Made by a program: the position numbers and the translations under genes. Source: Sutcliffiella horikoshii (lineage in GTDB: Bacteria > Bacillota > Bacilli > Bacillales > Bacillaceae_I). Taken from it: a stretch of DNA of 64,000 nt. This document shows positions 6,108 through 49,770 of the stretch, one piece after another (position 1 is the first letter of the stretch; every line of letters starts with the position of its first letter). Under the pieces are notes generated by a model. That model was not told the DNA's origin. It made no database searches and saw only the letters and a program-made list of their open reading frames with translations. Location of the stretch: contig NZ_CP082918.1 in assembly GCF_019931755.1 (NCBI RefSeq), positions 1,158,001 to 1,222,000 of the forward strand. The letters are read 5' to 3'.

Positions 6108-6183
6108 TAACAAATTGGTCACAAGTTAGGCAAATAGTCGGATTTGGGTTTCATTTCCTCATTAATAGAATAAAAAACAAAAC

Positions 6184-6213
6184 AAAAAGGCTCCCATTGC
6201 TGGGAGCCTTTTA
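6184..6213 (-). terminator. Terminator of the cold-shock gene
   Basis: GGCTCCCA/TGGGAGCC perfect stem with TTGC loop, flanked by A5 and T4, so it can work on the minus strand for cspB and perhaps in both directions. Confidence 0.8.
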
Positions 6214-6229
6214 TATGCTGTGCTATAAA

Positions 6230-6430
6230 TTATGCTTTGTTAACGTTAGCAGCTTGGTCGCCACGGTTACCTTGAACGATTTCAAATGTAACAGATTGAC
6301 CTTCTTCTAAAGATTTGAAACCTTCGCCTTGGATTGCTGAGAAGTGAACGAATACGTCGTCTCCGTCTTGGCGCTCGATGAATCCGAAACCTTTTTCTGC
6401 GTTAAACCATTTTACTGTACCTTGTAACAT
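6230..6430 (-). CDS. cspB: Cold-shock protein (CspB family)
   Basis: A 66-residue single OB-fold RNA chaperone. RNP1 (KGFGFI) and RNP2 (VFVHF) are intact, with the usual [10 protein letters not shown] start. The ATG at 6430 is preceded by TAGGAGGTAACAAC; upstream in-frame codons to 6493 lack an RBS. The long 5' region and a small GTGTG/CACAC hairpin directly 5' of the RBS (6445-6459) are consistent with post-transcriptional control. The exact paralogue (B, C or D) cannot be told. Confidence 0.92.
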
Positions 6431-6810
6431 GTTGTTACCTCCTAGTGTGCTTGCCACACAATGTATTACTATTCTTGCTCTTAGAAATATCAAGGCGAAA
6501 GTTAAATCTTAACTTTGAATCCTTACATACCGAACAAAAATAATTCTTCTTTAGAATAACAGTAAAAACCAAAAATAGCAACCCAAGAGCACAAAACCCC
6601 AATTAAGCGTGAGGCTTATATAGAGGTGGGAATTCTCCTGTGCGGGTCTGACCCCTTTATTTAATTTAATAAACGTAACACGATTGAAATATTTCAATTA
6701 TTGTAATTTTGGTGAAATTGGTGATTGACAAGTGGTTGTCCGCGGTGGTAAGTTTAAAAAGTGGAAATTATATGAAACTAATTCAAATTATGAAGGAAAG
6801 GGAGGGTTCG
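6431..6810. other. Intergenic region between the csp promoter and the bmr leader
   Basis: Holds the csp 5' region, a copy of the TGCGGGTCTGACCCC repeat (6640-6655), a perfect 16-bp palindrome ATTGAAATATTTCAAT (6683-6698) that could be an operator, and a TTGACA -35-like hexamer at 6725-6730 with only a weak -10 candidate about 18 bases downstream. No gene with an RBS was seen before 6811. Confidence 0.5.
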
Positions 6811-47942: not shown

Positions 47943-48365
47943 TTACTTGATACCGTGATTAATTTTAGTTGCGATTTCTTGCAGATCTTGTGTTGTGTAA
48001 TCGCTCTGGTTCGATTTCCATACTGCACCAAACCCGTCACCTTTGCCGTAGCGAGGGAGGATGTGAAGGTGATAATGAAAAACCGATTGACCGGCAGCTT
48101 CTCCATTATTATTTAAAAGGTTAAGCCCAATCGGTTCAAATTGCTCTTTTATGGAGTTAGCGATTTTAGGAACCACTTTAAAGAGATTCTCCGCGATCTC
48201 AGGTGTAAGCTCGTAAATGTTTTCTTTATGTACTTTCGGAATAACTAATGTATGTCCTTTTGTCACCTGGCTGATGTCAAGAAAAGCCAGAACATGTTCG
48301 TCTTCGTAAACCTTGGCAGCAGGGATGTCCCCATCAATAATTTTGCAGAAAATGCAATCACTCAT
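47943..48365 (-). CDS. hit: HIT family protein Hit
   Basis: 140-residue histidine-triad nucleotide hydrolase/transferase. Two N-terminal Cys (CIFC), GHTLVIPKVH, LNLLNNNGEAAGQSVFH and the triad HYHLHILPR. ATG 48365 has AGAGGTGA upstream. Lies next to ecsA in divergent orientation as in B. subtilis. Confidence 0.93.
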   Translation of the reverse strand: MSDCIFCKIIDGDIPAAKVYEDEHVLAFLDISQVTKGHTLVIPKVHKENIYELTPEIAENLFKVVPKIANSIKEQFEPIGLNLLNNNGEAAGQSVFHYHLHILPRYGKGDGFGAVWKSNQSDYTTQDLQEIATKINHGIK

Positions 48366-48436
48366 CTGTTTCACCTCTGAACTTTAGTTTCATCTATTTT
48401 ACCATGTTTTGGACAAGTATCCTAATAGGATGAGCA

Positions 48437-48474
48437 GGCAAAATAAACAAGCAAGAGCAAAAGCTCCTGCTTGT
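48437..48474 (-). terminator. Terminator of the putative ncRNA
   Basis: On the minus strand ACAAGCAGGAGC/GCTCTTGCTTGT (11 of 12 paired) with TTTT loop, then TTTATTTTG. It precedes hit and follows no coding gene. Confidence 0.7.
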
Positions 48475-48950
48475 GAAGAAAGGGACGAGAGGCAACAAGC
48501 TTCTCTATCTGAATAAGGAGAAGCCTACAAACATCATTTTAGCGTTCAAATAACTGTGTTTGATAAACACCTCATCTGATTTATAAAATGTGTCTAATTG
48601 TCAGCTTTCCTGTTCAAAACAACCATCCCCTTGTTACTGAGTTTTACAACTTTAGTAACGCGGCTATCGACGTAAAGTCTCTTTAACGAACACCTCATTT
48701 TCAGAATGAATCAATCACAGGTTACGACTTTAGAGTAAAGTGTCGCCCGTAAGCACCTCATTTCTTTATCAATCGGAGTTGCGTTACAGATGATCGTGTG
48801 GTTGCAGTCGGTTAAGTCCCACAACGACGAGAGAAAAAGTTTAACCTAATCTAGAACAAAGCAACACTGTCTTTGACAGTCACCTCATCTACAAAGAAGT
48901 AAACCAAAGGCTTGTCTAAGTGCCCCTCTGTCCCCTTCCTTACTTATGAT
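48447..48950 (-). ncRNA. Putative structured ncRNA with four AUGAGGUG motifs
   Basis: About 0.5 kb between ecsA and hit without a plausible gene. The minus strand has AUGAGGUG four times (complement at 48881-48888, 48754-48761, 48691-48698, 48568-48575), each followed by a hairpin, e.g. ACUGUC-AAA-GACAGU after the first and UGUUU-AUC-AAACA after the fourth. Other pairings include GGTTAA/TTAACC and the nested GUUACU/AGUAAC stem. It ends in a strong terminator. The 5' end is not defined (about 48930-48960). No similarity recognised to a named Rfam class. Confidence 0.5.
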
Positions 48951-49029
48951 GCGCACTTTCGTTTAAATTATGTTATGGTAAAATTTAATAATAATAAAGT
49001 TTTATTTCAGGCAGAAAGGGTAGGTTGAT

Positions 49030-49770
49030 GTGAGTTTATTGGAGATTAGTGGATTGACTGGCGGTTATACGAATCAGGCTGTGTTGAAGGATGTCTCATT
49101 TGGTGTCAAGGCTGGCGAGTTGGTGGGGTTGATTGGCCTTAATGGTGCCGGTAAAAGTACGACAATCAAACATGTAATCGGAACGATGGAGCCGAAGAAA
49201 GGATCCATCAAGATTAATGGAATTTCCATTCAAGAGGATACGACAAAGTATCGTTCGACTTTTACATTTATTCCTGAAACACCGATTCTATATGATGAAT
49301 TGACGTTGTATGAACACCTAGAACTAACTGCGATGGCGTATGGGTTATCAAAAGAAACTTTTGAAGAACGATTGCACCCGCTACTAAAAGAGTTCCGTAT
49401 GGAAAAGCGTCTTAAATGGTTTCCTGCCCATTTTTCAAAAGGTATGAAACAGAAGGTCATGATCTTAGCTGCTTTTCTGATCGAACCGAAGCTCTATATC
49501 GTCGATGAACCTTTTGTCGGTTTAGATCCGCTTGCCATTCATTCTTTGCTTGAAATGATGGATAAAGTGAAAAAGAGTGGAGCAGGCATCCTTATGTCCA
49601 CGCATATCCTTGCGACAGCGGAAAGATACTGCGATTCATTCGTTATCTTGCATGAAGGGGAAGTGCGGGCAAAAGGAACGTTGGAAGAACTTAGGATGCA
49701 GTTCAAGATGCCGATGGCTTCGCTTGATGACCTCTATATTCAACTGACAAAGGAAGAGAGCAATGTTTAA
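49030..49770 (+). CDS. ecsA: ABC transporter ATP-binding protein EcsA
   Basis: 246 residues: Walker A GLNGAGKST (36-44), FSKGMKQKV signature, Walker B LYIVDEPFVGLDP, H-loop MSTHI. Ecs affects secretion, competence and intramembrane proteolysis by RasP in B. subtilis. GTG start with AAAGGGTAGG upstream; overlaps ecsB by eight bases. Confidence 0.93.
   Translation: MSLLEISGLTGGYTNQAVLKDVSFGVKAGELVGLIGLNGAGKSTTIKHVIGTMEPKKGSIKINGISIQEDTTKYRSTFTFIPETPILYDELTLYEHLELTAMAYGLSKETFEERLHPLLKEFRMEKRLKWFPAHFSKGMKQKVMILAAFLIEPKLYIVDEPFVGLDPLAIHSLLEMMDKVKKSGAGILMSTHILATAERYCDSFVILHEGEVRAKGTLEELRMQFKMPMASLDDLYIQLTKEESNV

Follow-up and report, generated by a model that had tools for sequence, protein, structure and literature searches.

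Within the window, i.e., the whole 64,000-nt stretch of Sutcliffiella horikoshii DNA that was analyzed, a minus strand gene at positions 47943-48374 and a plus strand gene that starts at 49030 border a gap from which an RNA is predicted to be transcribed. The two genes are presumed to be hit and ecsA, respectively, on the basis of an initial annotation of this DNA and of the usual gene order, and the hit product matches histidine-triad proteins in the PDB. According to the ORF list of the window, the gap contains no open reading frame of at least 40 aa. The statement of the initial annotation that no credible gene is present is correct for frames of this size, but each of the repeated motifs described below heads a closed mini-frame.

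Features of the minus strand are listed in Table 1. They include a putative promoter, a transcript of approximately 500 nt, a helix (P1) that is predicted to close the ends of the RNA, and an intrinsic terminator, which is the strong Rho-independent terminator already noted on this strand. The minus strand gap sequence displays a fold z of -5.5, and 0 of 100 shuffles were equally stable. Four copies of the 8-mer ATGAGGTG, spaced 127, 63 and 123 nt apart, had been reported and are all present. The 8-mer AUGAGGUG is the core of a linear motif of ~22 nt, AAAUGRGGUGUYURUYAAAGAC, termed here module M. A second module, B, and a stretch complementary to 16S rRNA are also found.

The Rfam scan proposed in the initial annotation gave no family: with the Rfam 15 covariance models there was no match at gathering score in the window gap and in the loci of 8 relatives, and at E up to 5 the window gap showed two weak matches, both to unrelated eukaryotic families. 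In a separate part of the window (6182-6561, minus strand) the Rfam cspA thermoregulator is found, with 82.8 bits and a gathering score of 78.

Table 1. Positions (in the window) of features predicted in the hit-ecsA gap
Feature	Positions	Strand	Description and basis
-35-like element ACATA	48969..48973	-	putative sigmaG/sigmaF-type promoter, 17 nt before -10; layout seen family-wide
-10-like element CATCATA	48945..48951	-	sequence and family-wide layout
RNA transcript, ~500 nt	48440..48940	-	predicted from promoter and terminator; 5′ end inferred, uncertain by a few nt
P1 end-closing helix, 5′ arm	48922..48939	-	fold and end pairing
Module M1	48851..48888	-	AUGAGGUG 48881-48888; mini-frame GUG..UAG 48851-48883 (VTVKDSVALF if read as written)
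16S-complementary stretch TCGUUGUGGGACUUAACC	48810..48827	-	18 nt, one G-U; 16S of own genome; apparently lineage-specific
Module M2	48730..48761	-	8-mer 48754-48761; mini-frame 48730-48756 (VLTGDTLL)
Module M3	48664..48698	-	8-mer 48691-48698; mini-frame 48664-48693 (VFVKETLRR)
Module B	48594..48632	-	AAGGGGATGGTTGTTTTG 48615-48632; mini-ORF 48594-48617, UUG start, LNRKADN, UAG
Module M4	48505..48575	-	8-mer 48568-48575; mini-frame 48505-48570 (21 codons)
P1 end-closing helix, 3′ arm	48478..48493	-	fold and end pairing
Intrinsic terminator, 12 stem pairs	48440..48474	-	terminator prediction

Conservation of the RNA and of its promoter

The whole RNA was used as a DNA query against 101 genomes, of which 20 match at E<=0.001. 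These are all 16 genomes of the genus (the own genome included), the two further genomes of the family and 2 of the remaining 83, the last two with weak matches. A tblastn search places all 20 matched loci between ecsA and hit, and the RNA of the same-genus genome G006 displays 97% identity. A second-motif pattern is found in 90 of 397 genomes of the order, and the reversed control pattern in 3 genomes. Among 30 loci fetched by this pattern, 27 lie between ecsA and hit; the 3 that lie elsewhere (L024, L025 and L039) were left out.

In total 157 loci were collected, 146 with an ecsA-hit gap and 11 without an adjacent ecsA. Ten of these 11 have no M within ~1.5 kb upstream of hit; the other, L156, is near a contig end and shows three M upstream of hit. 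The tables of frequency, B, promoter, rRNA and frame exclude nine almost identical Sutcliffiella loci (L002-L008, L010, L011). RNA ends were set in 101 of 137 gaps, with 68 RNAs retained after removal of similar ones; it should be noted that in some RNAs, that of the window included, the 5′ end was placed too far inward by a few nt.

M sites were defined as GRGGTG plus at least 15 of the 22 letters of AATGAGGTGTYTGTYAAAGACA. The 146 ecsA-hit gaps contain 371 such sites in the forward orientation and 0 in reverse, and 50 mononucleotide shuffles give a mean of 0.34 and a maximum of 2. At least one NNGRGGTG is present in 140 of the 146 gaps. The count of the 8-mer in the window as a whole is unremarkable alone, with 5 found, 1.9 expected, and 8 of 100 shuffles that reach 5. 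In a set made of the best 80 of 576 Hit-protein relatives, which favors Bacillaceae, 74 of the 80 have an ecsA-hit gap; M is found in 73 of these 74 (the exception is L105) and at least two M in 72. Thirty genomes were also drawn from other families, and the gap is present in 25, with a strict-pattern M in 18 of those 25.

A promoter candidate with the layout seen in the window is present in 117 of 137 gaps, and none is found in the other 20. Candidates that score at least 10 number 102 of the 117, as opposed to 23 of 2340 shuffled segments. The family-wide columns read GNATA-like, then a spacer of mostly 17 or 18 nt, then CATNATAAT, a layout that corresponds to the sigmaG/sigmaF type. This assignment agrees with the published sigma dependence of the Bacillus velezensis sRNA Bvs196, which is discussed below. 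Comparison between loci shows the transcript, as predicted, to be a real and conserved RNA that ends in a terminator and has a putative sigmaG-type promoter. That the repeats represent a simple duplicated promoter region is without support, as they are situated inside the transcribed part and do not resemble the single promoter.

SigG searches placed 368 of the 397 genomes of the order above the SigG cut-off. Strong M matches were seen in 0 of 15 SigG-less genomes, 0 of 27 SigG-positive genomes of the same families and 3 of 3 positive controls, so that families with SigG-less genomes are wholly without strong M. Three loci (L075, L083 and L084, from G055, G023 and G068) have an ecsA-hit gap of just 132-139 nt without such an RNA, despite strong SigG matches in their genomes; the RNA is thus missing from some of the presumed spore formers of the order.

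Some loci depart from the usual arrangement. L044 (G242) and L085 (G038) display two complete tandem RNA copies per gap, and every copy includes a promoter, modules and a terminator. In L078 (G062) ecsA is separated from a reduced version of the RNA by an additional gene, which by eye looks like that of a cysteine-rich lipoprotein. L155 and L129, recorded as Chryseobacterium sp. ISL-80 and Paenibacillus sp. BSR1-1, have a Bacillaceae-type hit-ecsA locus and are perhaps mislabelled or contaminated.

Modules M and B and their reading frames

Module B (AAGGGGAUGGUNNNNUUG) has a likeness to a ribosome-binding site with a UUG start. With RGGRGATGRT as the site pattern, 174 B sites are found in 111 of 137 gaps and 0 on the opposite strand. 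The start position is occupied by UUG in 156 sites, AUG in 6 and AAA in 12, with no other triplet, and the energy of pairing with the anti-SD peaks 8-12 nt upstream of this position. B has the form of a complete tiny cistron, with an SD, a UUG, a median of 10 codons and a stop. In the AAA-type sites the remaining letters are those of M, and in related species M with GUG is found at the same place as an AAA-type site (AAGGGGATGGTTGTTAAAGACC beside AACGGGGTGGTTGTTAAAGACC). As the AAA-type B sites are otherwise M, the two modules are considered to be related, with the AAA of M at the start codon position of B.

The GAGGUG of M is complementary to the 16S tail of the own genome, and the match to the anti-Shine-Dalgarno pointed out in the initial annotation is correct; the modules are SD-like and may bind 30S subunits, as was also suggested there. 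The SD-like hexamer of M is in the same register as in B, but AAA, GCA or GGC is present where B starts. The anti-SD energy in M peaks on GUG(5-7) itself, inside the hexamer, and this GUG is therefore misplaced for normal initiation. At codon 4 of M, which is at the normal start distance, NUG is found in 0 of 422 cases. AAA occupies codon 4 in 139 cases vs 3 for AAG (six window genes use the two 85 to 36), which means that the motif is constrained as RNA beyond its codon meaning. Position 1 of M, in 276 distinct instances, is U in 96%, C in 4%, A in ~1% and never G. A G there would extend the pairing with the 16S tail, so its absence counts against the SD reading. Peptides read from M start with M-F/S/L-V/I/T-K/A-D/E, and their sequences vary widely.

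Closure of the module frames was assayed in the 68 non-redundant RNAs, with start-to-start distances of 36-150 nt only. The frame set by an M module is closed ahead of the following start in 137 of 140 cases, and that set by a B module in 78 of 79. The other two frames close in 114 and 106 of 140 (M) and in 63 and 61 of 79 (B), and the null fractions are 0.72 for M (sd 0.035, max 0.81) and 0.69 for B (sd 0.049, max 0.82). An in-frame stop at 4-18 codons is present in 76 of 80 non-redundant B sites, with a mean of 57% and a maximum of 74% in 500 runs of a Markov null. The frame of M is the same whether counted from GUG(5-7) or from AAA(14-16), and in 74% of 181 sites it shows a stop 3-15 codons downstream of the motif, vs 47% expected (sd 3.6); the other two frames show 44% and 43%, with nulls of 47% and 42%. 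For the first M of each RNA (n=67) a stop in 3-15 codons is found in 82%, vs 39% and 39%, and for the last M in 76%, vs 42% and 46%. NUG triplets elsewhere in the RNAs close within 3-15 codons in 50% (n=852). The closure agrees across the Hit-relative set, the remaining loci and the B-less loci, each taken singly. The starts show no mutual phase lock (58, 83 and 82 by remainder), and in B. inaquosorum and B. tequilensis the third M has no stop before the terminator.

Comparison of the loci thus shows an array of related RBS-like modules together with frame closure. The closure is taken as evidence of ribosomes that read from the M and B modules. The bodies of the mini-frames differ between the two. 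M bodies display no codon-position bias in substitutions (67/78/72), 762 of 1154 ortholog-like pairs are of unequal length, and peptide conservation was looked for in these pairs and not found. B bodies display a third-position excess (26/32/53, p 0.004, from pairs that are not independent), and their lengths are equal in 243 of 342 ortholog-like pairs; P values of these substitution and length tests are rough, as related loci were treated as independent. B has what a dual-function sRNA would display, i.e., an SD, a start and an in-frame stop under selection, and M has a frame under selection without a normally placed start codon.

Secondary structure and 16S rRNA complementarity

The initial annotation described a short hairpin immediately after each 8-mer, with pairing kept while the sequence differs. 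In the first copy a local hairpin that begins at the next base has -5.8 kcal/mol. The hairpin energies of copies 2-4 are 0 to -0.2, or 0 to -1.8 with two bases of the 8-mer included. No column pair of M stands out as a base pair in the covariation analysis of 276 distinct instances, where the strongest coupling is between the neighboring columns 14-15 (AA, GC, GG), and no conserved helix around M was found in 183 instances. A variable hairpin with kept pairing after AUGAGGUG is rejected, as a firm hairpin is limited to the first copy and there is no covariation; the motif is linear instead. Thus the expected conservation in relatives is found for the motif but not for the hairpins that follow it. 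The proposal of a structured modular RNA of ~0.5 kb stands in that the RNA is modular and conserved and has its own terminator, but its modules are better described as RBS-like heads of mini-frames than as structured units.

Pairing of at least 7 complementary bases between the two ends is found in 41 of 68 RNAs vs 299 of 1360 shuffles, and the base pairs differ between genera. GAGGUG is predicted to be more paired than other GC-rich hexamers (0.23 vs 0.33 unpaired), although accessible sites had been expected. This argues against a permanently open decoy, and opening by ribosomes or during folding would be required.

The 16S-complementary stretch of the window RNA gives a match score of 44, and one of 60 mononucleotide shuffles reached 40. 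All Sutcliffiella loci examined have preserved the stretch, and in the sister genus locus L017 it is 17 nt long; L018 is mismatched. The closing pair around it changes in some species with pairing kept. Elsewhere, rRNA-match scores are up to 41, vs 40 on the control strand, and the 16S match of Sutcliffiella is the only one to stand out. rRNA pairing as a family-wide property was rejected, as 88 stretches score at least 31 vs 126 on the control strand (maximum 3 per gap and rRNA). The match, limited to Sutcliffiella and a single sister genus, is read as a lineage-specific addition and is no more than suggestive.

Relation to S357/ncr1670/Bvs196 and possible roles

The initial annotation could not match the RNA to a known class. 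Its place is that of a forespore sRNA known from Bacillus as S357, ncr1670 and Bvs196. Bvs196 of B. velezensis is a 294-nt RNA of the hinT-ecsA gap whose forespore expression depends on sigmaF and, above all, on sigmaG, and its loss lowers spore resistance to heat and UV (PMC9147052). A Northern blot showed an independent RNA of ~300 nt, and the B. subtilis homolog is named in that article as S357 once and as S547 elsewhere (PMC9147052). The RNA ncr1670, 256 nt long and from the same gap, is 2.77-fold enriched with Hfq (PMC3574147), and ncr1670 and S357 are written together in PMC4410918.

The window RNA likewise has its place between hit (hinT) and ecsA and is encoded on the strand of hit; it has its own terminator and, 5′ of it and as read from sequence alone, the promoter ACATA-17-CATCATA, of the forespore kind. 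Three GAGGUG modules are present in each of five loci from the B. subtilis group (B. inaquosorum, B. tequilensis, B. atrophaeus, B. siamensis and Bacillus sp. ISL-51), and the RNA length predicted from promoter and terminator is 294 nt in B. siamensis and 292 nt in B. inaquosorum. Shared sequence is found through the M modules. Outside of these the similarity is judged weak, because at E<=1e-3 the full-length window RNA finds no more than 20 of 101 relatives. The window RNA differs from the Bacillus RNAs in its length of ~500 nt and in its content of four M, a single B and a stretch complementary to 16S. Locus identity is shown by this comparison, and the feature is the Sutcliffiella counterpart of S357/ncr1670/Bvs196. 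Forespore expression and the effect on spore resistance are published for B. velezensis and may hold for Sutcliffiella as well.

What appears to be new here is the module array with its frame closure, the S357/Bvs196 locus being already known as that of a forespore sRNA. A term search of the main text of PMC9147052 found no mention of a module array or mini-frames, and none was described in those parts of the open-access literature that were searched. CsfG is also a sigmaF/sigmaG forespore sRNA, named as a separate one in PMC9147052. SR1 is a dual-function sRNA, with SR1P as its short ORF (PMC8501984), and differs from the present RNA, in which several frames of ~10 codons are found in a row and M peptides are little conserved. 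In both the present RNA and the CsrB/RsmZ decoy RNAs a short purine-rich motif is repeated within one molecule. In the decoys, however, the motif is GGA in hairpin loops, and here it is GRGGUG, part of a linear motif around which no hairpin is conserved, so that the RNA lacks this mark of a CsrA/RsmA decoy.

The role proposed here, tentatively and with rather less than even confidence, is that of a string of RBS-like mini-cistrons that would engage ribosomes on dead-end mini-ORFs in the forespore. The RNA would be made from the sigmaG/sigmaF-type promoter and stopped at the intrinsic terminator, with its two ends paired. Each module would then engage a ribosome, through docking of a 30S subunit and, at least in the case of B, through brief translation. 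The ribosome would be released before the next module, so that a single RNA could occupy ribosomes repeatedly in the late forespore. Ribosome binding, translation and the forespore effect of the modules are all inferred. The mechanism is weakened by the predicted pairing of the SD-like hexamers, the lack of codon bias in M bodies, the misplaced start of M, and the published antisense function. More doubtful is a wider form of the proposal, in which the RNA would represent a new architectural class of repeated ribosome-engaging modules, each with a dead-end frame of about ten codons, that occupy or park ribosomes as the forespore falls silent. M would then be a binding site without a usable start in exact register, and the Sutcliffiella branch would have added an antisense contact to 16S.

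A conventional base-pairing forespore sRNA that acts on spo0A and sspN-tlp mRNAs, with repeats that aid folding or Hfq binding, is considered less likely, but it has experimental support. Bvs196 binds the two mRNAs in vitro, with Kd of 3.57 uM and 74 nM, and the binding is abolished by site mutation (PMC9147052); the Hfq enrichment of ncr1670 (PMC3574147) points the same way. However, in the 294-nt RNA of B. siamensis the modules begin at nt 28, 145 and 204, and the published pairing regions, nt 74-131 and nt 109-124 (PMC9147052), fall between them. The conserved parts are thereby left unexplained, and frame closure has no role. Because the antisense regions lie between modules, the module and antisense models are separable by experiment.

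Less probable is M as the site of an RNA-binding protein, with the SD likeness incidental or there for release by ribosomes. The strict 22-nt linear motif exceeds codon or SD needs (AAA and not AAG, position 1 never G) and would suit such a site. Against it, B resembles an RBS that is followed by a UUG or AUG start, hybrids between M and B occur, and a protein site does not need frame closure. It is still more improbable that the RNA is a messenger for several functional micropeptides of the MFVKD... and MNRKADN... types. Frame closure, the third-position excess and equal lengths of B, and the shared M peptide starts would be expected of one, but M bodies have no codon-position bias, differ in length and vary widely in sequence. 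A 5′ leader that attenuates the downstream hit, whose strand it shares with a terminator ~65 nt upstream of the gene, is very improbable given the independent ~300-nt RNA on the B. velezensis Northern (PMC9147052), a TGGTAAAAT box 3′ of the terminator here and in most aligned relatives, and the two complete tandem copies in L044 and L085.

The S357/Bvs196 family would give Rfam a family that it now lacks. A 2024 ribosome profiling study of B. subtilis sporulation described the mechanisms of adaptation to translation silencing as poorly understood, and the silencing events that it names are those of the mother cell (PMC11339384). The RNA of the hit-ecsA gap, which affects spore resistance in B. 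velezensis, has so far been regarded as acting by antisense pairing. Should the part of it that is conserved instead consist of ribosome-engaging mini-cistrons, it would be a testable candidate for the handling of translation in the forespore, and selection would act on reading frames of about ten codons within an RNA annotated as non-coding.
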